Below, in pieces: positions 3,293 to 19,567 of a stretch of 21,772 bases of DNA. Origin of the DNA: Candidatus Bathyarchaeota archaeon. GTDB lineage: Archaea > Thermoproteota > Bathyarchaeia > RBG-16-48-13 > GCA-020355125. Under the pieces are notes generated by a model. The model was given only the letters and a program-made list of their open reading frames with translations, had not been told where the DNA came from and ran no database searches. The position numbers were made by a program, and so were the translations under genes. The stretch spans positions 1-21,772 of the forward strand of contig DAOVAG010000002.1 in NCBI GenBank assembly GCA_030671165.1, given 5' to 3'. The stretch's first letter is position 1; every line of letters begins with the position of its first letter.

Positions 3293-3814
3293 ATGTTAGG
3301 ATATTTTCTGACCAAAGACCCTATTATCTACGATACTATCGTAAATATCATTGATGCTCATCGTTCTAAAGTAGCGGAGTATAACAATTCAGTTCCATTA
3401 AAAGACATTGCTGCGAGATTACTTAGACCAAACGACCAAGTTATCGGTGGAACAGCAGAAACTTACTCGGCAACTTACACTAACGCAACTGACGAATATC
3501 TCTTAGGTTTATCAGCAGAGCAACGAGTTCCAATCGGTATGGGAGTTCTCTCATTAGGTTGGTATTCTCAGCTTGATTTTGGAGCTAATGGTATTCTCGA
3601 AGTAGATTTAGAAGGCATTAAACGACAAGAAGTATTAGCTCGTTTTGTCTATGAATCTGATATGAACTTGTATGTAGAACCACAGCAAGTCGTATTTGCC
3701 AAAGAGAACGATAAGATTGCTTGGATAGTTCGAAACGAGTCGGGTATAGATTTGACGGGTGTGGTTTTTCCTTTTGCATTTTTGATTGGACCTAGAAAAC
3801 AACTTCTGTTATAG
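3293..3814 (+). CDS. Probable virion structural protein, 173 aa
   Basis: A helical N-terminus (about 1-45, with AARLLRP) is followed by a long beta-rich region with alternating hydrophobic residues: ETYSATYTNATDEYLLGLS, VLSLGWYSQLDFGANGILEV, MNLYVEPQQVVFAKENDKIA and GIDLTGVVFPFAFLIGP. Such a beta sandwich-like pattern with no catalytic motif suits a capsid or coat protein. It has a Shine-Dalgarno-like AGAGGT and is directly followed by a second small gene behind a very strong Shine-Dalgarno site, as expected for abundantly made proteins. A pair of single jelly-roll capsid proteins would be one model. Family membership cannot be assigned from sequence inspection alone. Confidence 0.6.
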   Translation: MLGYFLTKDPIIYDTIVNIIDAHRSKVAEYNNSVPLKDIAARLLRPNDQVIGGTAETYSATYTNATDEYLLGLSAEQRVPIGMGVLSLGWYSQLDFGANGILEVDLEGIKRQEVLARFVYESDMNLYVEPQQVVFAKENDKIAWIVRNESGIDLTGVVFPFAFLIGPRKQLLL

Positions 3815-3820
3815 GAGGAG
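3814..3820 (+). promoter_or_regulatory. Strong Shine-Dalgarno site for the gene at 3829
   Basis: GGAGGAG lies 8 bases before ATG 3829 and overlaps the TAG stop of the upstream gene. It is among the strongest ribosome binding sites in the window and implies high translation. Confidence 0.75.
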
Positions 3821-3828
3821 ATAATTAA

Positions 3829-4206
3829 ATGTCAAGCCCATTAACAGATATTTTAACTCCAAACGAAAAACAACGGGGTGGAATGATAGCAGGTGGAGCA
3901 GAAGTGGCTTCCGCAGCGGCAGGAGTAAAAACTATTACTCTTGGTAATGGTTATCCCGCAATAAATCGTAAAATTCAAAGTCCAGTTCTTTTGATACTTC
4001 TTGTCCAATATGACCCAGTCTTGGTTCAAAATGGATGCGAAGCTTTCTTTATTAGTGGACAAATGGATAGAGCAACAGCTCCCGATAGTGCTGGAGAGTT
4101 CCAGATAACAGGAGCAAGAACGATTGATGTTTATTCCACAGCAAATAATGAAACTTTACATGCGATAGTTTTCTACATTCCAGAAGGTTCTGGAGCAAAA
4201 GTGTAA
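3829..4206 (+). CDS. Probable second virion structural protein, 125 aa
   Basis: A Gly/Ala-rich N-terminus (GGMIAGGAEVASAAAG) leads into beta-type segments (VKTITLGNGYPAINRKI, PVLLILLVQYDPVL, CEAFFISGQM, ARTIDVYSTANNETLHAIVF). Small size, low charge and a single cysteine fit a coat or decoration protein. The gene is 14 bases after the previous stop with a strong GGAGGAG site and is followed by a T10 run, so the two form a short operon that ends here. It is a natural partner of the 173-aa protein. Structural role is inferred from composition, expression signals and neighbours. Confidence 0.6.
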   Translation: MSSPLTDILTPNEKQRGGMIAGGAEVASAAAGVKTITLGNGYPAINRKIQSPVLLILLVQYDPVLVQNGCEAFFISGQMDRATAPDSAGEFQITGARTIDVYSTANNETLHAIVFYIPEGSGAKV

Positions 4207-4216
4207 TTTTAATAAA

Positions 4217-4231
4217 TTTCTTTTTTTTTTC
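4217..4231 (+). terminator. T-run terminator after the coat-like genes
   Basis: A run of ten T (4221-4230) lies 15 bases after the stop, with no stable hairpin, as expected for archaeal T-tract termination. Confidence 0.6.
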
Positions 4232-4236
4232 TTACC

Positions 4237-4247
4237 TTTTTTATATT
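4237..4247 (+). promoter_or_regulatory. TATA box for the membrane protein at 4268
   Basis: TTTTTTATATT is centred about 25 bases before ATG 4268, immediately after the terminator of the preceding operon. Confidence 0.6.
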
Positions 4248-4267
4248 AGAATTCCCTAATTCTATAT

Positions 4268-5014
4268 ATGCTTAATAAAAAATCAAAGCCACAGATAAGC
4301 TTCTCAGGAGTTCTGACAATTCTTTTCACCCTTGCTCTCGTTCTTTTGCTTCCCGATAAAGGGGTATCAGAGATACAACAAACCATACAGAACTTATGTC
4401 TTATCGTGATTTATTTCATACTGGCATTGTCATCAAGTAATTTAGCAATAATAGCAGAGATAATGGCTTCACTTCTCCAAATTAATCGTGATACTGACAT
4501 GAACAACATTGATAAGGTATTGCTAATAAGAAATCAGTTAGATATATACACGGGGTTATTTAACTCGATTTTTACTGAGGTCAGAGAATTAGGTCATAAC
4601 GGAAAATTTCACAAGCGATACCAAAGAACGAAGACCAGTATTAGTAAGCTATTTAAAGGCGGGGTTTCCATATATCAAGCGATATGGATATTTGTTTACA
4701 CATTTTATCTATTTGTCTTAAAGCAAAATATTTTCGATGTCGCAAAACCATTTGACGCTATGATAGTTTTTGGATTTAATATAGGTTTAGCTCTAAGCAA
4801 TAGAAACATAAAAGGTATGGGGAGTTTGATTAAAGACCTGTTTGTATTCTCACATAAAGAGAAACCCGATAAGATTACCTTAGCTAACATTATTCACACG
4901 ATTAGGTTATTATGTTTGAGTTATAGTAGAGTTGCTAAAAGAATTAAACTATGCACGGGTTATAGTGTTCAAGAACTTGTAGATAGAACGGGTCTTACTG
5001 TCGAAGCTAAGTAG
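4268..5014 (+). CDS. Polytopic membrane protein, 248 aa
   Basis: Four hydrophobic segments are visible: about 13-29 (LTILFTLALVLLLP), 42-65 (LCLIVIYFILALSSSNLAII), 135-155 (IYQAIWIFVYTFYLFVL) and 163-177 (AMIVFGFNIGLAL). A charged loop of about 65 residues separates the two pairs and contains a basic patch (KFHKRYQRTKTSISKLFKGG). The C-terminal 60 residues are soluble and basic. No transporter, pore or enzyme motif is recognised. It is a single-gene unit with a leaderless-type promoter. It could be a virion or host-membrane protein acting in egress; that is inference. Confidence 0.7.
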   Translation: MLNKKSKPQISFSGVLTILFTLALVLLLPDKGVSEIQQTIQNLCLIVIYFILALSSSNLAIIAEIMASLLQINRDTDMNNIDKVLLIRNQLDIYTGLFNSIFTEVRELGHNGKFHKRYQRTKTSISKLFKGGVSIYQAIWIFVYTFYLFVLKQNIFDVAKPFDAMIVFGFNIGLALSNRNIKGMGSLIKDLFVFSHKEKPDKITLANIIHTIRLLCLSYSRVAKRIKLCTGYSVQELVDRTGLTVEAK

Positions 5015-5415: not shown

Positions 5416-6648
5416 ATGTCAAATATGGATTATAGTCTAAATGTAAAGAAATTTACTGATTTTAATCAAGCAGTTAAGGTTTTAGGTCAGAGAACCTATA
5501 AAACCTATAAACTATGTGGTTTGAGTTCACTAAGATTCAATCAATATGGTGACTTAACTGTTGGTTATGAAGTTATTGATACTGACTTATCTGGTGTTGC
5601 TGAATATTCTCAAGAATATACTAAACGGTTATTTACTCCTAAGCATGTGTGGAATCATTTAGTATCTATGCTTAAGCTTCCTTCTATGTTATACGATTAC
5701 TATGAACTATTCAAGAAACTTGGTCAATCTCAATTAGATATGTGCTTAGACATGGAGAGAGATATACTTAGTATGTTTTTTGACCATAGAGAAGCTGACA
5801 AATTACAGAGAGAAGAGAATAAATCGGGTCACTACTTAAAAGACCATTACATTAGTGTTTTTACTGATATACATGGAGAGTTTCCAAGAGTTATTAGAAG
5901 TGAACTTTATAGACCTTATTCGGATTTAGATGCTTTAATTGATACTAACGATAATCTTAAGAAGCATAATGAAGTTAAAGGTTCAGATTTTAACTTTAAA
6001 AATGCTACCTATTCACCTTATAAGCTTAAAGCTAATTTTCTTGATAACAAGAAAAAAGCAGAACTTCATAAGGTGGGTGATAAGGTGTGTGCTGGTGTCA
6101 ATATGTTTAACTCTGAAACTAAGGATTCTTCTTACGGTTTTCAAGTTCTAATGATGCGGTTAATCTGTTCAAATGGAGCAGTTAGTTCATTTGTAGATAA
6201 TACCTTAAAGGTTAAGCATATAGGAGCTGACTTCGAAAAGAATACTCTAATAGCTTTTAAGAGAGCTTTACAACTATCGAATAAGTATATTGAGCAATAC
6301 ATGAACTTAGAGAAATTTTCAGAACCTATCTCTAATTCTTGGAATGATTTACTTGAAATTCCTTCAAAACTCATTACACTTAACAACAGAGAGAAACTGA
6401 ACCTAATTCAAGTTGCTGAGAGAGAGAGTTATAACTTCTCTGCTTACGGGTTAGTTCAAGCTTTAACTTTTGAAGGTTCAAATAATAGTAGAACCGACAA
6501 AGATATTAAAAGATACAACGATAAAGCTAATTTAATAATCGAAAATCCGACAAATATTAGTAAATGGATACCAAATAGACTATTACCAAAAAAAGATGAA
6601 AAAACGGAAATAAACGATATAGGAGAGCTTAGTTTATATCCTAATTAA
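5416..6648 (+). CDS. DUF932-like phage/plasmid protein
   Basis: From ATG 5416 the protein is 410 residues; a TTG at 5377 would add 13 residues encoded inside an inverted repeat and is less likely. The diagnostic DUF932 block lies near residues 220-255: GVNMFNSE, a gap, then LMMRLICSNGAV (G227, N232, C251), matching the family's G-x-x-x-x-NS-x-TG...RLxCSNGxV pattern. DUF932 proteins are frequent in phages and plasmids and some are linked to ssDNA recombination or anti-restriction, but no activity is settled. The gene stands alone between two repeat-rich non-coding stretches, the setting of a replication- or maintenance-related gene. A T10 run follows. Confidence 0.75.
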   Translation: MSNMDYSLNVKKFTDFNQAVKVLGQRTYKTYKLCGLSSLRFNQYGDLTVGYEVIDTDLSGVAEYSQEYTKRLFTPKHVWNHLVSMLKLPSMLYDYYELFKKLGQSQLDMCLDMERDILSMFFDHREADKLQREENKSGHYLKDHYISVFTDIHGEFPRVIRSELYRPYSDLDALIDTNDNLKKHNEVKGSDFNFKNATYSPYKLKANFLDNKKKAELHKVGDKVCAGVNMFNSETKDSSYGFQVLMMRLICSNGAVSSFVDNTLKVKHIGADFEKNTLIAFKRALQLSNKYIEQYMNLEKFSEPISNSWNDLLEIPSKLITLNNREKLNLIQVAERESYNFSAYGLVQALTFEGSNNSRTDKDIKRYNDKANLIIENPTNISKWIPNRLLPKKDEKTEINDIGELSLYPN

Positions 6649-6688: not shown

Positions 6689-6870
6689 CTTATTTCTCTA
6701 CTGGTTTCTTACAAACTTCATGTAGTTTGACTGAAACATTTTATAGGTTCTTGGTTATTAACCTAAAAATTAGAACCGACATAACTTTTAAATAAAACCT
6801 TAACCTATTACCAATTAGAATGAAGTCTTATTCTAAGAACGGTAGCAGTTTTGAAGTCTTAATAGGTGAT

Positions 6871-6939
6871 AAAGTTAGGAGTTTTCATCTAGCACAAAAT
6901 ATACTATATATATTGTGCTAGTTAATTTCTCCTAACTTT
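6871..6939. repeat. 69-bp nested palindrome
   Basis: Outer arms AAAGTTAGGAG (6871-6881) and CTCCTAACTTT (6929-6939) are perfectly complementary. After unpaired 7-base spacers on each side, inner arms CTAGCACAA (6889-6897) and TTGTGCTAG (6913-6921) pair perfectly, and the AT centre is also nearly self-complementary. The symmetry of both spacers suggests a real site for a dimeric or tetrameric protein, or a cruciform-forming origin element, rather than a chance repeat. Confidence 0.75.
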
Positions 6940-7006
6940 TATTTCTGTAAAGTCTACAAACTCTCTACCTATGTTAAGATAAGACTTGTTTAAGAAGTGT
7001 TAAAAA

Positions 7007-7882
7007 ATGGTAGAAGTAAAGGAAATTATCTGTAAGCATGATACCGTTAAAGAAAACGGTTTTACGGTGTGTGTTCTATGTGGAGTTTGCGTAGAATCAG
7101 ATTACTTCCTTTTAGACCAAAAGGAGCTAAATTCAAGAAACAGTCAACCGTTTAAGCATAATGAAAACTACATAATCGAAACTGAGAAAACTAAGAAATT
7201 TAAAGCTTCATTTAAGTATAATAGATTAATGAAAATAGATAGAAGTTCTAAGAATACAGTATCGGGTTATATATCGTTAAAAACAACCTTACTTCTCAAC
7301 AAACTAAGTGAGTTTCTCAACAAAAAACAACTTAATGAACTTAAGAACTATATATGGAATAATGAACCAAAAACAGTAAAGGATTTGTTTCAATCAGTAT
7401 TCTACTATGTGGATTCTATGGATTTACCTATACTTTCAAGTCAATTGATTCATATTATCAAACAAGACACGGTTCTTAGTTCACGGATAAAAATTTACAG
7501 AGATATACGGAGATTCAAGACTATTCGAACTTACTATTGGTATATTTCCAAAAGAATCTCTGAGATACAACAGATTCCAATAGAGAAACACCATGAAATT
7601 TTTGAAACAGTAAAGGAGTATTACAAGATTATTCGATTTAGGTTATTAGATTCTTGTAATCCTATACACTTAATAGATTACCTATTATATGAAGCTATAA
7701 ATCAACATTTTAGACACATACCAAAAGAGTTTAGAACCTTAAAGAAATTCAATTTAACTCATTTTTTCAAGCTAGATAACAAGAAATATTTAATGAAGTT
7801 AAAAAGGCTTAAATTAGATGAAAAAATAGCTTTAAAACTGATATTTTTGTTTGATAGATATAACAAAAAGGAGAGAGAGTAA
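7007..7882 (+). CDS. Divergent TFB-like transcription initiation factor
   Basis: 291 residues. The N-terminus has a TFIIB-type zinc ribbon: C9, H11, C22 and C25 in ICKHDTVKENGFTVCVLCG. The rest is helical; residues 85-170 could be a first cyclin-like repeat and 215-275 (CNPIHLIDYLLYEAINQHF onward, ending in a basic KYLMKLKRLKL helix) resembles the second cyclin repeat of TFB. The usual B-reader and the clear GxGAA-type motifs are not seen, so it is divergent. A TFB-like protein would redirect host RNA polymerase to viral promoters. It is followed after 1 base by the gp88-like gene, which starts behind a Shine-Dalgarno site located in this gene's end. The zinc ribbon is seen; TFB homology of the rest is inferred. 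Confidence 0.6.
   Translation: MVEVKEIICKHDTVKENGFTVCVLCGVCVESDYFLLDQKELNSRNSQPFKHNENYIIETEKTKKFKASFKYNRLMKIDRSSKNTVSGYISLKTTLLLNKLSEFLNKKQLNELKNYIWNNEPKTVKDLFQSVFYYVDSMDLPILSSQLIHIIKQDTVLSSRIKIYRDIRRFKTIRTYYWYISKRISEIQQIPIEKHHEIFETVKEYYKIIRFRLLDSCNPIHLIDYLLYEAINQHFRHIPKEFRTLKKFNLTHFFKLDNKKYLMKLKRLKLDEKIALKLIFLFDRYNKKERE
7871..7876 (+). promoter_or_regulatory. Shine-Dalgarno deciding the start at 7884
   Basis: AAGGAGAGAGAG upstream of ATG 7884 supports this ATG over the in-frame TTG at 7851, which lies inside the preceding gene. Confidence 0.6.
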
Positions 7883-7883
7883 T

Positions 7884-8480
7884 ATGATACACATAACAGA
7901 AGGAAACGGAAAATTGGAGTTAATTAACTCAATCAATACAAACCCGTTAGATAATGAATACTGTATAAAAATGAGTAAGAAACCTAATACGGTTTGTTTC
8001 AAGTGTTATTCTATAAGAACACTAAATCGTTGGTATCAAGTTAGAAAACCTTTAACCCGTAATTCGATTGAACTTTCTGAAACTGTATTACCTATGAGAG
8101 ATTTACCAACAATTAATGCATTATATTTCAGGTTTAATTCTCATGGTGAATTAATAAATAAGAAGCATCTACTCAATCTTTTTAAGATTTGTCGGAAAAA
8201 TCCAAAAGTGAGTTTTGCTTTATGGTCAAAAAGGATAGAAGTGTTTGATGAGTTAAATATGGATAAAAGACCCGACAATTTAGTTTTAATATATTCTTCT
8301 CCAATAGTGAATCTGAAATCAAGAAAACCAAGAGAGTATTTTGATAAGGTATTCACGGTTTTCACGGAAGACTATGTTTCTGAGAATAGTATTGAGATTA
8401 ATTGTCAAAAGAAGTGTTATCGGTGTTTAACTTGTTATTCAAGAACCACACCAGTTTTTATACAAGAATTAATTAAGTGA
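7884..8480 (+). CDS. Phage gp88-like cysteine protein
   Basis: 198 residues from ATG 7884. The order of motifs follows the phage gene product 88 (gp88-like) family: an N-terminal cysteine group (C27, C38, C41 in TVCFKCYSIRTLNRW), a central FRFNSHGELINKKHLLNLF segment (the family's fRxhxsGDf block), then PKVSFALWSKR and a beta-rich stretch, and a C-terminal cysteine cluster C174, C178, C181, C184 (CQKKCYRCLTCYS). The family is common in phages and archaeal elements; the cysteines probably bind a metal or Fe-S centre but no reaction is established. It is co-transcribed with the TFB-like gene. A T10 run follows. Confidence 0.7.
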   Translation: MIHITEGNGKLELINSINTNPLDNEYCIKMSKKPNTVCFKCYSIRTLNRWYQVRKPLTRNSIELSETVLPMRDLPTINALYFRFNSHGELINKKHLLNLFKICRKNPKVSFALWSKRIEVFDELNMDKRPDNLVLIYSSPIVNLKSRKPREYFDKVFTVFTEDYVSENSIEINCQKKCYRCLTCYSRTTPVFIQELIK

Positions 8481-8491
8481 AATTTAAATTC

Positions 8492-8501
8492 TTTTTTTTT
8501 T
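8492..8501 (+). terminator. T-run terminator after the gp88-like gene
   Basis: Ten T start 11 bases after the stop. An overlapping AAATTTAAATT at 8480-8490 is centred about 26 bases before ATG 8512 and is likely the TATA box of the next gene. Confidence 0.55.
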
Positions 8502-8511
8502 ATTGTTATTT

Positions 8512-8781
8512 ATGGAAACTAAAAGAGTAATCTGTATTACTTTAGGTTGTAATGAAACCGCAGTTCTTAAGAATCTCAGTAGATTTGAAGGAGCAGTAAG
8601 TTTCACGGATATTTTTGAAACTCATAGAGAGAATACATCTTTAGCTTATGAAACTCAACTTGGTATGGTTTTAGGAAGACTAAAACATAAACAACTAATC
8701 GAATGGTTTGCTTGGGAAAATCAATCCTATTGTCAGATTACTGAGAAAGGAAGAATGATGCTACTGGTGTTAAAGAAATGA
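8512..8781 (+). CDS. Small winged-helix-like regulator
   Basis: 89 residues from ATG 8512, placed correctly after a TATA-like AAATTTAAATT; a TTG at 8503 would add three residues. The predicted pattern of helices followed by a hairpin (TQLGMVLGRLKHKQLIEWFA, then QSYCQITEKGRMML) is typical of winged-helix proteins, with the wing at YCQITEKG. It may be a repressor or activator of nearby genes. It overlaps the HNH-like gene as ATGA, so the two are coupled. Family assignment is by pattern only. Confidence 0.6.
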   Translation: METKRVICITLGCNETAVLKNLSRFEGAVSFTDIFETHRENTSLAYETQLGMVLGRLKHKQLIEWFAWENQSYCQITEKGRMMLLVLKK

Positions 8782-9080
8782 GCAAAGAATACAAAAAAGA
8801 CTGGTATCAAAAAAATAAAGCACGATTAAATGGAAAACAAAACCTATTCCATGAAGGTTTTAAAGAGAGAAACGGTATTCATTATGCTACTTTACATAAT
8901 TGGATTCGAAAAAATATAGAAAGAACTCATTTTTGTCCTATTTGTTTTGAGTTTCACGATAAGACCGAATTTGCTAATATCTCTCAAGAGTATAAGAAAG
9001 ATGTGAAAGACTACATAGAACTATGTAGACCGTGCCATAGAGATTTTGATTCAGTAATAAAACTTAATAGTGTAGTTTAA
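8778..9080 (+). CDS. HNH-like zinc protein
   Basis: 100 residues. Two CxxC pairs bracket a short core: C53 and C56 (HFCPICFEFH) and C83, C86 with H87 (ELCRPCHRDF). Between them FANISQEYKKDVKDYIELC matches a small phage HNH-type family in which the cysteines bind structural zinc. The canonical catalytic DH/HH pair is not obvious (H87 and possibly H60 are candidates), so nuclease activity is uncertain. The basic N-terminus (KKDWYQKNKARLNGK) resembles a DNA-binding element. It is translationally coupled to the winged-helix gene, and its stop is followed at once by the operator palindrome of the RHH gene. Confidence 0.65.
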   Translation: MSKEYKKDWYQKNKARLNGKQNLFHEGFKERNGIHYATLHNWIRKNIERTHFCPICFEFHDKTEFANISQEYKKDVKDYIELCRPCHRDFDSVIKLNSVV

Positions 9081-9085
9081 ATATG
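9076..9085 (+). promoter_or_regulatory. TATA-like box for the RHH gene
   Basis: TTTAAATATG is centred about 35 bases before ATG 9115 and overlaps the first operator. An alternative box, ATATTATAAA (9093-9102), lies between the first and second operators. Confidence 0.4.
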
Positions 9086-9125
9086 TAGCTACATATTATA
9101 AAATGTAGATACAAATGTCAATACA
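9080..9125. promoter_or_regulatory. Three-site operator array at the RHH promoter
   Basis: A perfect 18-bp palindrome AATATGTAGCTACATATT (9080-9097) contains TGTAGCTACA (9084-9093). TGTAGATACA follows at 9104-9113 and TGTCAATACA at 9116-9125. The centres are 20 and 12 bp apart, exactly the spacing found at 1209-1250. The last site contains the TG of the start codon. Autorepression by the RHH protein encoded here is the simplest reading. Confidence 0.75.
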
Positions 9126-9426
9126 AAACTCAAAAGGTAATAAAGAAAAATTTATTTCCATACGAACCGATGAGCAGTTCAGAGACCTCTACAAAGAGAA
9201 AGCCTTAGAACTCAATTATCGGAAGAGTTCTGAATACTTTCGATATATTGTCGAGAATTACAACGATTTGGAAGAATGTTATAAGATGCTAAACTCTCTT
9301 TTTGTTGATTTAAGCAATAAAGCAGATACAGTTATAAGCAATTTTGGTGTTCTAAGAGATATGATAACCGACAATTTGGATATTGAAAAATTGAAAAGAA
9401 TGAATAGGATATTGGAGTTGGAATAA
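9115..9426 (+). CDS. Ribbon-helix-helix repressor, probably autoregulated
   Basis: 103 residues. Residues 11-50 fit an RHH domain: strand KEKFISIRT, helix 1 EQFRDLYKEKALELNY and helix 2 SSEYFRYIVENY. The C-terminal half is helical (KMLNSLFVDLSNKADTVISN) and may mediate multimer formation. RHH dimers bind short palindromes as tandem arrays, and three TGTA-N2-TACA-type sites with 20 and 12 bp spacing overlie this promoter and start codon. The same array at the GIY-YIG nuclease makes that gene a likely second target. The start is set by the TATA-like sequence and absence of another Met. The gene at 9428 follows after 1 base. Confidence 0.75.
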   Translation: MSIQNSKGNKEKFISIRTDEQFRDLYKEKALELNYRKSSEYFRYIVENYNDLEECYKMLNSLFVDLSNKADTVISNFGVLRDMITDNLDIEKLKRMNRILELE

Positions 9427-9427
9427 A

Positions 9428-9760
9428 ATGTCGCAATTCGATAATTTAATGGAGAAAAAACCCGAACTTGAGCTAGAAGACATAGAAGAAATGGTAGAAG
9501 AAGCAAAACAAGACCCAGTAGCTTTTCTTGAAAAGGTTGAGAAGAAACCTAAAAAAGAAAAAATCAAGCAACCTAAGATTGACTATGAACAGGAGTTAAA
9601 AGATATTTATAATCCTCCGATAGAATACTTAATGTCGGCTTTTCGAATGATTACAAACAAACCTTATCACCATAATAAACTAAAAATTCTTGCGAAATTA
9701 GAAGAATACATACCAAGACTTAAGGAAAAGCTCATTGACCTTAAAAAATCTAAAAAATAA
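9428..9760 (+). CDS. Hypothetical charged protein, 110 aa
   Basis: The first half is acidic and helical (ELELEDIEEMVEEAKQDP), followed by a Lys/Pro linker (KKPKKEKIKQPKIDY) and a helical C-terminal domain (PPIEYLMSAFRMITNKPYHH, ending in basic residues). No family is recognised. It starts one base after the RHH gene and is probably in the same autoregulated operon. The charge pattern fits an adaptor that binds a basic or acidic partner; this is inference. Confidence 0.65.
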   Translation: MSQFDNLMEKKPELELEDIEEMVEEAKQDPVAFLEKVEKKPKKEKIKQPKIDYEQELKDIYNPPIEYLMSAFRMITNKPYHHNKLKILAKLEEYIPRLKEKLIDLKKSKK

Positions 9761-18928: not shown

Positions 18929-19567
18929 ATGAAGATATTAATAATTGCTCCATTCCACGATTTAGCAACCAGTATATCTTCTACTGCTGTTGATTTCTTA
19001 ATTCTCTGGATACAAAATCGGAATATAGTATTAAATAAGCAAGGGAGAAAATTAATACAATACAAGAGTCTTCGGTTTATCGCTGCTAATAGATGGGCTA
19101 TACCATTAAATCAGGGATATGATGGAATCTTTTACTTCGGGCATGGATTAAAAGACCGCTTAGGAGATTTTGCGATAGGCTTCCTTCCGATTATTGATAC
19201 TAAGAACTGTAATTTATTAGCGGGGTCAGTTGTCTACACTATGGCTTGTTATTCAGGAGAAACTTTAGCTCCAACTTGTATTAATAGGGGAGTAAAAGCA
19301 TATTTCGGTCAAACTACTCAATTCTATGGGTTCATGCCAACTATAAAGCAAGAATATTTAGCAGATTGGTATAGGTTAGTGAATGTAATACCTATTTCAT
19401 TAATGTTAGGTAATAGTTGCAGTAGGGCACTTGAAGAATATGAAGGCTATGCTAATGAATTACGAGTTAAATATTTGGTTAAGCCACCTTCGGTTAATTC
19501 CAAGCTGTTATTTAGTAATGCGTTAAATATGAACTTATATGGAGATAAGACAGCAAAACTATATTAA
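18929..19567 (+). CDS. Caspase-fold cysteine peptidase
   Basis: 212 residues. The order of elements matches the caspase-gingipain-separase fold (clan CD): an N-terminal strand (MKILIIAPFHD), then GYDGIFYFGHG carrying the catalytic His (H72), then GSVVYTMACYSGE with the catalytic Cys (C107) followed by Ser-Gly. Both residues of the dyad are present, so it is probably active. No signal peptide or extra domain is seen, so it is a minimal stand-alone enzyme. It heads a block of small membrane and cysteine-rich genes, which suggests particle maturation, but a host-directed or anti-defence role is possible. Substrate unknown. Confidence 0.7.
   Translation: MKILIIAPFHDLATSISSTAVDFLILWIQNRNIVLNKQGRKLIQYKSLRFIAANRWAIPLNQGYDGIFYFGHGLKDRLGDFAIGFLPIIDTKNCNLLAGSVVYTMACYSGETLAPTCINRGVKAYFGQTTQFYGFMPTIKQEYLADWYRLVNVIPISLMLGNSCSRALEEYEGYANELRVKYLVKPPSVNSKLLFSNALNMNLYGDKTAKLY

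Follow-up and report, generated by a model that had tools for sequence, protein, structure and literature searches.

According to excerpts of PMC5569661, F55 is a small virus-encoded regulator with the ribbon-helix-helix (RHH) fold, and its tandem sites lie in several viral promoters, including its own, where they overlap the start site and the BRE. The same excerpts describe SvtR of SIRV1, which binds at its own promoter and also at three further sites, most strongly at a structural gene where the site is located upstream of TATA, and AvtR, which stimulates or represses depending on its concentration; PDB entries are given for SvtR, AvtR and E73. For the RHH protein RelB of E. coli, excerpts of PMC2812701 describe the operator relO as a pair of 12-bp palindromic half-sites that abut each other and are built from [A/T]TGT[A/C]A hexads. 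Sites of the repressors of Cluster A mycobacteriophages (stoperators) are spread over the genome, and related phages differ in immunity specificity (excerpts of PMC6550527 and PMC9283540).

The window, i.e. the whole stretch of 21,772 nucleotides analysed here, is contig C170 of a MAG with 227 contigs (assembly 77% complete), and it carries an array of three short palindromes at the start of ORF 9115. Like the sites of F55, such arrays were found at the promoter of the presumed regulator and at several other viral promoters, a likeness at sequence level only (five arrays, one of them at ORF 9115). F55, which we liken to this locus by description, uses tandem ATAGATAG repeats with one or two sites per promoter, whereas here three TGTANNTACA palindromes are arranged with centre distances of 20 and 12 bp. 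As with SvtR, the arrays lie at the presumed regulator's own promoter and at others, including that of a presumed structural gene, where the array is upstream of the TATA-like element; the putative SvtR site, ATnnTTCAAnAnnnnnAAAATG, is however unlike TGTANNTACA. The second and third sites of the array at ORF 9115 (9103-9126) read ATGTAGATACAA-ATGTCAATACAA, two abutting 12-bp units in closely the same layout as relO, as far as the excerpts describe it. Unlike relO, this array has a third site 20 bp away and there are five genomic copies, and the next ORF, 9428-9760, matched no toxin family (Pfam, E up to 1). Cluster A stoperators are single short asymmetric sites present in many copies; here, in contrast, a probable archaeal virus has five copies of a triple palindrome array, and the type of DNA-binding domain apparently changed between relatives.

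Results

Two triple arrays in the window

Array A consists of three 10-bp sites (no strand assigned) at 9084-9093 (TGTAGCTACA), 9104-9113 (TGTAGATACA) and 9116-9125 (TGTCAATACA), with centres at 9088.5, 9108.5 and 9120.5 and thus with spacings of 20 and 12 bp. The first site is enclosed in a perfect 18-bp palindrome at 9080-9097. Both the spacing and this palindrome, as reported in the initial annotation, were recovered. The third site departs once from TGTANNTACA (TGTC) and covers the start codon (ATG) of ORF 9115-9426 on the plus strand, which encodes a probable regulator of 103 aa with an N-terminus that is RHH-like by residue pattern only. A TATA-like element, TTTAAATA, assigned by eye on the plus strand at 9076-9083, is located immediately 5' of the array, which begins right after it and extends to the start codon. 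The sites had been described as overlying the promoter and start codon of an RHH gene; the overlap with the start codon holds, and the RHH identity of the product is only plausible, with no Pfam RHH family matched. An inverted repeat at 9010-9030, CTACATAG-AA-CTATGTAG, was considered as a fourth site and set aside; its half-sites are array-like, their polarity is opposite, and it lies within the HNH-like ORF 8778-9080.

Array A alone had been described previously, and a motif scan beyond its promoter yielded the overlooked second array of the window (array B, 1209-1250) and three more on other contigs. Array B comprises sites at 1209-1218 (TGTAGCGACA), 1229-1238 (TGTAGATACA) and 1241-1250 (TGTATATACA), again without an assigned strand. 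Its first site covers the start codon of the minus-strand ORF 830-1219, a GIY-YIG nuclease-like gene (PF01541, E 4.3e-10) that begins inside the array. On the other side, array B ends 36 bp upstream of TTTAAATA, which occurs as two adjacent TATA-like copies at 1287-1302 on the plus strand (by eye), between the array and the plus-strand ORF 1318-1698. The orthologue of ORF 1318 in the related virus G101 (28% identity, E 3.7e-7; see below) also has an upstream array. A NikA-like RHH protein is encoded nearby at 448-855 on the plus strand (PF21983, 29.9 bits, cut-off 27).

At both ORF 9115 and the GIY-YIG gene the outermost site reads TGTC and not TGTA. This shared departure probably reflects a coding constraint, since an A at that position gives a stop as the second codon. 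The GIY-YIG gene had no tblastn match in G101, where the neighbour at that place differs. It may thus have been inserted, with its start codon falling within the operator.

Number, arrangement and distribution of the arrays

The full 20/12 pattern was found five times in the MAG assembly: twice in the window, with one mismatch each, and once each in contigs C14 (5819-5860), C74 (5364-5405) and C164 (1753-1794), with 0 mismatches of 24. In all five arrays the spacing was exactly 20/12 (mismatches 0, 0, 0, 1 and 1 of 24). The window showed no excess of single sites with up to one mismatch (13 found, shuffled mean 11.75; at least 13 in 35 of 100 shuffles). For triples the outcome was different: 20 Mb of Markov-1 sequence contained no 20/12 triple at up to 3 of 24 mismatches, against two in the window with one mismatch each, so that the equal frequency in randomised sequence that would have spoken against the array was not seen. 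Across the four array contigs (55,106 bases), 13 of the 14 exact TGTANNTACA sites fell inside arrays, and in 40 Markov-3 simulations the mean number of exact sites was 1.05, while a triple within 45 bp never occurred. The significance is in the arrangement of the sites, not in the frequency of single sites.

The rest of the MAG assembly (77% complete) was without a 20/12 array outside C170, C14, C74 and C164. The pattern was likewise absent from the other 255 of 256 genomes of the class at up to 3 mismatches, and from the other 100 of 101 genomes at up to 2. An exact array search gave no match in genome_contigs or viral_contigs, collections from which records close to the genome of the window may be missing.

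Of the 42 bases of an array, 31 or 42 fall outside predicted genes, although of all 42-bp stretches in the array contigs only 3-15% are mostly non-coding. All five lie over a gene start or at most about 65 bp upstream of one, and two overlap start codons. In C14 the array is located just upstream of a TATA-like TTTAAATATTTAAA (by eye) of gene 5757(-), and in C74 it is flanked by two divergent genes, 5319(-) and 5450(+), each of which starts about 45 bp away. The C164 array ends 11 bp before ORF 1806, where no clear TATA was seen. Altogether, the arrays occur in both orientations and at varied distances from TATA-like elements.

Four contigs, probably of one archaeal virus

C170 and C74 are joined by an exact 141-bp end overlap; for the ends of C14 and C164 no match in another contig was found. 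All four contigs encode proteins that matched the 56.7-kb IMG/VR record IMGVR_UViG_3300017963_000058 (G101) in the consistent order C164, C14, C170, C74, with the exception of repeat-rich fibre-like proteins, which matched several places. Two small proteins were 80% and 73% identical to their G101 counterparts. Because of the overlap and because proteins of all four contigs match this single IMG/VR virus, the four contigs are probably one virus of about 55 kb and the five arrays one viral regulon, C14 and C164 being placed in it by homology and co-binning only.

The virus is probably archaeal, as suggested by the TATA-like elements, a zinc-ribbon TFB-like ORF (by eye; no TFIIB match in Pfam) and a primase that is distantly homologous (41% identity) and is labelled Promethearchaeo... 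in one source. Another primase, P0003, is 82% identical. G101 was found by a viral scan with a primase alignment; viral scans with the 9115 protein alone and with the primase alone gave no match, and neither did the primase alignment in genome_contigs. Other primase matches in the 256 class genomes were weak and partial. More distant relatives with a capsid-like protein were present in 3 other genomes of the class, and no triple palindrome array was found in two contigs of these relatives, L056 (20,000 of 24,752 bases) and L057 (20,000 bases).

Several further features were recorded. A long imperfect hairpin with 81-nt arms occupies the intergenic region 6815-6995 of the window, directly upstream of ORF 7007 (RNA MFE -61.6 kcal/mol, z -7.8); it is not unique by energy alone, since its MFE ranked second among 2467 180-nt segments of both viruses, and Rfam gave no match within the window. 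ORF 18929-19567 of the window showed a weak, below cut-off match to Peptidase_C25 (caspase-like) and is conserved in G101 at 42%. At L014 5682-8696 a 1004-aa protein with a G101 relative (31% identity) contains a TOPRIM-like stretch (ITDFDPAGYSIA) that by eye recalls topoisomerase VI A / Spo11, with no convincing Pfam match. The viral contig L015 carries at 3537-4281 a gene for APS kinase and, after it, an ORF that by eye is adenylyltransferase-like, and at L013 5861-8440 a very cysteine-rich ORF (5861-6643) adjoins sulfotransferase-like and radical SAM genes.

The 9115 protein and its counterpart in G101

The 9115 protein and G101 7971-8495 were reciprocal best matches among 148 G101 ORFs (score 67, z 5.2, 0 of 500 shuffles). 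The second-best G101 match, 47137-47547, followed close behind (score 55, z 4.2, 1 of 500 shuffles); in the reverse direction, with G101 7971-8495 as query, the scores were 67 versus 45 for the next. BLASTP of the pair alone gave an E value of 2e-4. The similarity spans at most residues 37-103 of the 9115 protein, such that the C-terminus is common and the N-termini are unlike: by eye, that of 9115 has the RHH-like residue pattern, and that of G101 7971-8495 has a helix-turn-helix-like stretch (Pfam HTH_24, E 0.11) together with a CxxC zinc ribbon. In both genes an array separates a TATA-like element from the start codon. Orthology between the downstream ORF 9428 and G101 7648-7974 was also considered and dropped, as the two did not align.

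A search of 5.8 billion proteins returned no homologue of the 9115 protein beyond itself, and G101 7971-8495 likewise retrieved only itself from the large protein collection. Neither the complete 9115 ORF (at E up to 1) nor the N-terminus taken separately (at E up to 10) matched a Pfam RHH family. The best NCBIfam match was a weak one to TprA (E 0.013; 16 bits, cut-off 150), a protein called Arc-like RHH in the excerpts of PMC8565334. AlphaFold, run without an alignment, gave a poor model of the full-length protein (pLDDT 53.5; helices at 19-32 and 36-48, no strand), for which all Foldseek matches had E values above 5. A 46-residue fragment was predicted as one long helix (pLDDT 74.3), not as strand-helix-helix. 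Against PDB chains, phmmer (E up to 10) listed five weak matches, none of them a named viral RHH protein, and thus revealed no sequence homology to the characterised members of the F55/SvtR type that have PDB entries (SvtR, AvtR and E73). As no Pfam RHH family was matched, the TprA match is weak and the AlphaFold models are poor, the assignment of the 9115 protein as RHH is only plausible.

Different arrays in G101

In G101 the TGTANNTACA site was entirely missing, and a loosened pattern with 3 mismatches allowed yielded no TGTA array either. Four triple arrays of TTAA(A/T)TTAA in 10-bp steps were present, at 8508, 24318, 38145 and 42656; in 60 Markov-2 simulations no TTAA(A/T)TTAA cluster exceeded two sites. 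An unbiased triple search (any perfect palindrome with 4-bp arms, within 45 bp, A/T runs aside) returned only the C14, C74 and C164 TGTA arrays and these four TTAA arrays, the two window arrays being missed since each has a mismatch. The exact TTAA triple was present in 22 of 2.9 million viral contigs; only G101 had it in four separate places, and one other contig had two adjacent copies.

In gene 7971-8495, one of the G101 arrays fills the span from the TATA-like element to the gene start, and at the ORF 1318 orthologue another array precedes the TATA-like element. Two of the four G101 arrays thus lie at promoters orthologous to array promoters of the window's virus, those of the regulator gene and of ORF 1318. 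The chance of this is about 0.04-0.06 assuming 35-40 promoters (39 gene starts have a gap of at least 40 bp) and four orthologous targets by our own count, and the coincidence is therefore only mildly unexpected. G101 carries, besides, a second dispersed repeat set, three copies of a nested palindrome of about 50 bp around CCAAGTAACATTACTTGG (L047 203 and 10550; L048 18022, which is G101 38022).

Discussion

We consider it fairly probable that array A is one of five three-site operators in one probable archaeal virus, at which a regulator, most likely the 9115 product, binds palindromes as dimers, represses its own gene and acts on other operons. This virus-encoded regulator would occupy the three 10-bp palindromes of each array on roughly one helix face, since centre distances of 20, 12 and 32 bp correspond to about 1.9, 1.1 and 3.0 helical turns. 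In the regulator's own promoter the array fills the stretch between the TATA-like box and the start codon, the presumed transcription start included, so the bound regulator should block transcription. The array is placed upstream of the TATA-like element at ORF 1318 and at C14 5757(-), the presumed structural gene, and probably also between the divergent C74 genes; from there a bound regulator could recruit or obstruct TBP/TFB. Our favoured picture is a dual regulator that would repress itself and set the timing of other operons, including that of the conserved presumed structural gene. We infer from the DNA the binding itself, the identity of the binder, the sign of regulation and a role in lysogeny or timing, and likewise the TATA assignments, made by eye. 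As for the autoregulated virus switch proposed in the initial annotation, the five like arrays lend good support to an operator array at a viral promoter under autoregulation, and 'switch' is our interpretation of that arrangement.

The protein in question could also be a different one. If the arrays were the operator of the NikA-like protein 448-855 instead of the 9115 product, which we regard as unlikely, the binder would be the better-supported RHH protein of the two, one that passes the Pfam NikA-like cut-off and is encoded about 350 bp from array B. This is a real rival because a TTAA array precedes the start of its G101 homologue, 42158-42592 (z 4.7, 0 of 300 shuffles), by about 63 bp; in addition, the presumed DNA-contacting strand differs by eye between the two homologues. 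However, the 448 gene has no TGTA array upstream, and NikA itself is a mobilisation protein (Pfam description; excerpts of PMC8565334). Binding by another viral factor or by a host protein seems rather improbable to us. Candidates on the array contigs are the MazE/AbrB-like 2685-2858, the PadR-like C164 8527-8808 and the DUF7557/VapB-like C164 1516-1746, the last of which ends 6 bp before an array, but no gene among them has one of the five arrays directly upstream. A host factor is disfavoured because the array is missing from the rest of the host assembly (77% complete) and from 255 other genomes of the class.

Short palindromes at fixed spacing that are repeated round a viral genome could also serve replication, recombination or packaging. 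That the arrays are such sites and not operators is very improbable in our judgement, given that each of the five copies covers a gene start or is found no more than about 65 bp upstream of one, two of them overlapping start codons, and that G101 has a different array set with two of four at orthologous promoters. Chance, finally, would agree with the one-mismatch single sites being no commoner than in shuffled sequence (13 versus 11.75), yet five arrays against none in 20 Mb of simulated sequence (up to 3 mismatches), with 13 of 14 exact sites inside arrays, already refute it, and we give it next to no weight. The reading we retain is that of operators bound by a virus-encoded regulator, most likely the 9115 product.

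On this reading, the locus would be an autoregulated multi-promoter switch of the F55/SvtR type, in which the DNA-binding domain and the operator may have changed together between relatives. More specifically, and only tentatively, the two related viruses might share the same autoregulated switch gene, recognisable by its C-terminal domain and by array promoters at the regulator and at ORF 1318, while its DNA-binding domain (RHH-like versus helix-turn-helix plus zinc ribbon) was exchanged along with the operators (TGTANNTACA at 20/12 versus TTAA(A/T)TTAA at 10/10); we would sooner doubt this proposal than rely on it.

What had been a single palindrome cluster becomes a defined regulon of five arrays with named candidate targets in an uncultivated, probably archaeal virus, and since these targets are named, binding can be tested on synthetic DNA without the host. 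Among open papers, we found none that treats heteroimmunity or superinfection immunity together with archaeal viruses. If the comparison with G101 holds, an archaeal virus would alter its regulatory specificity and keep the circuit, a question well studied in phages; the joint exchange of domain and operator, if true, would amount to heteroimmunity by modular domain exchange in archaeal viruses.
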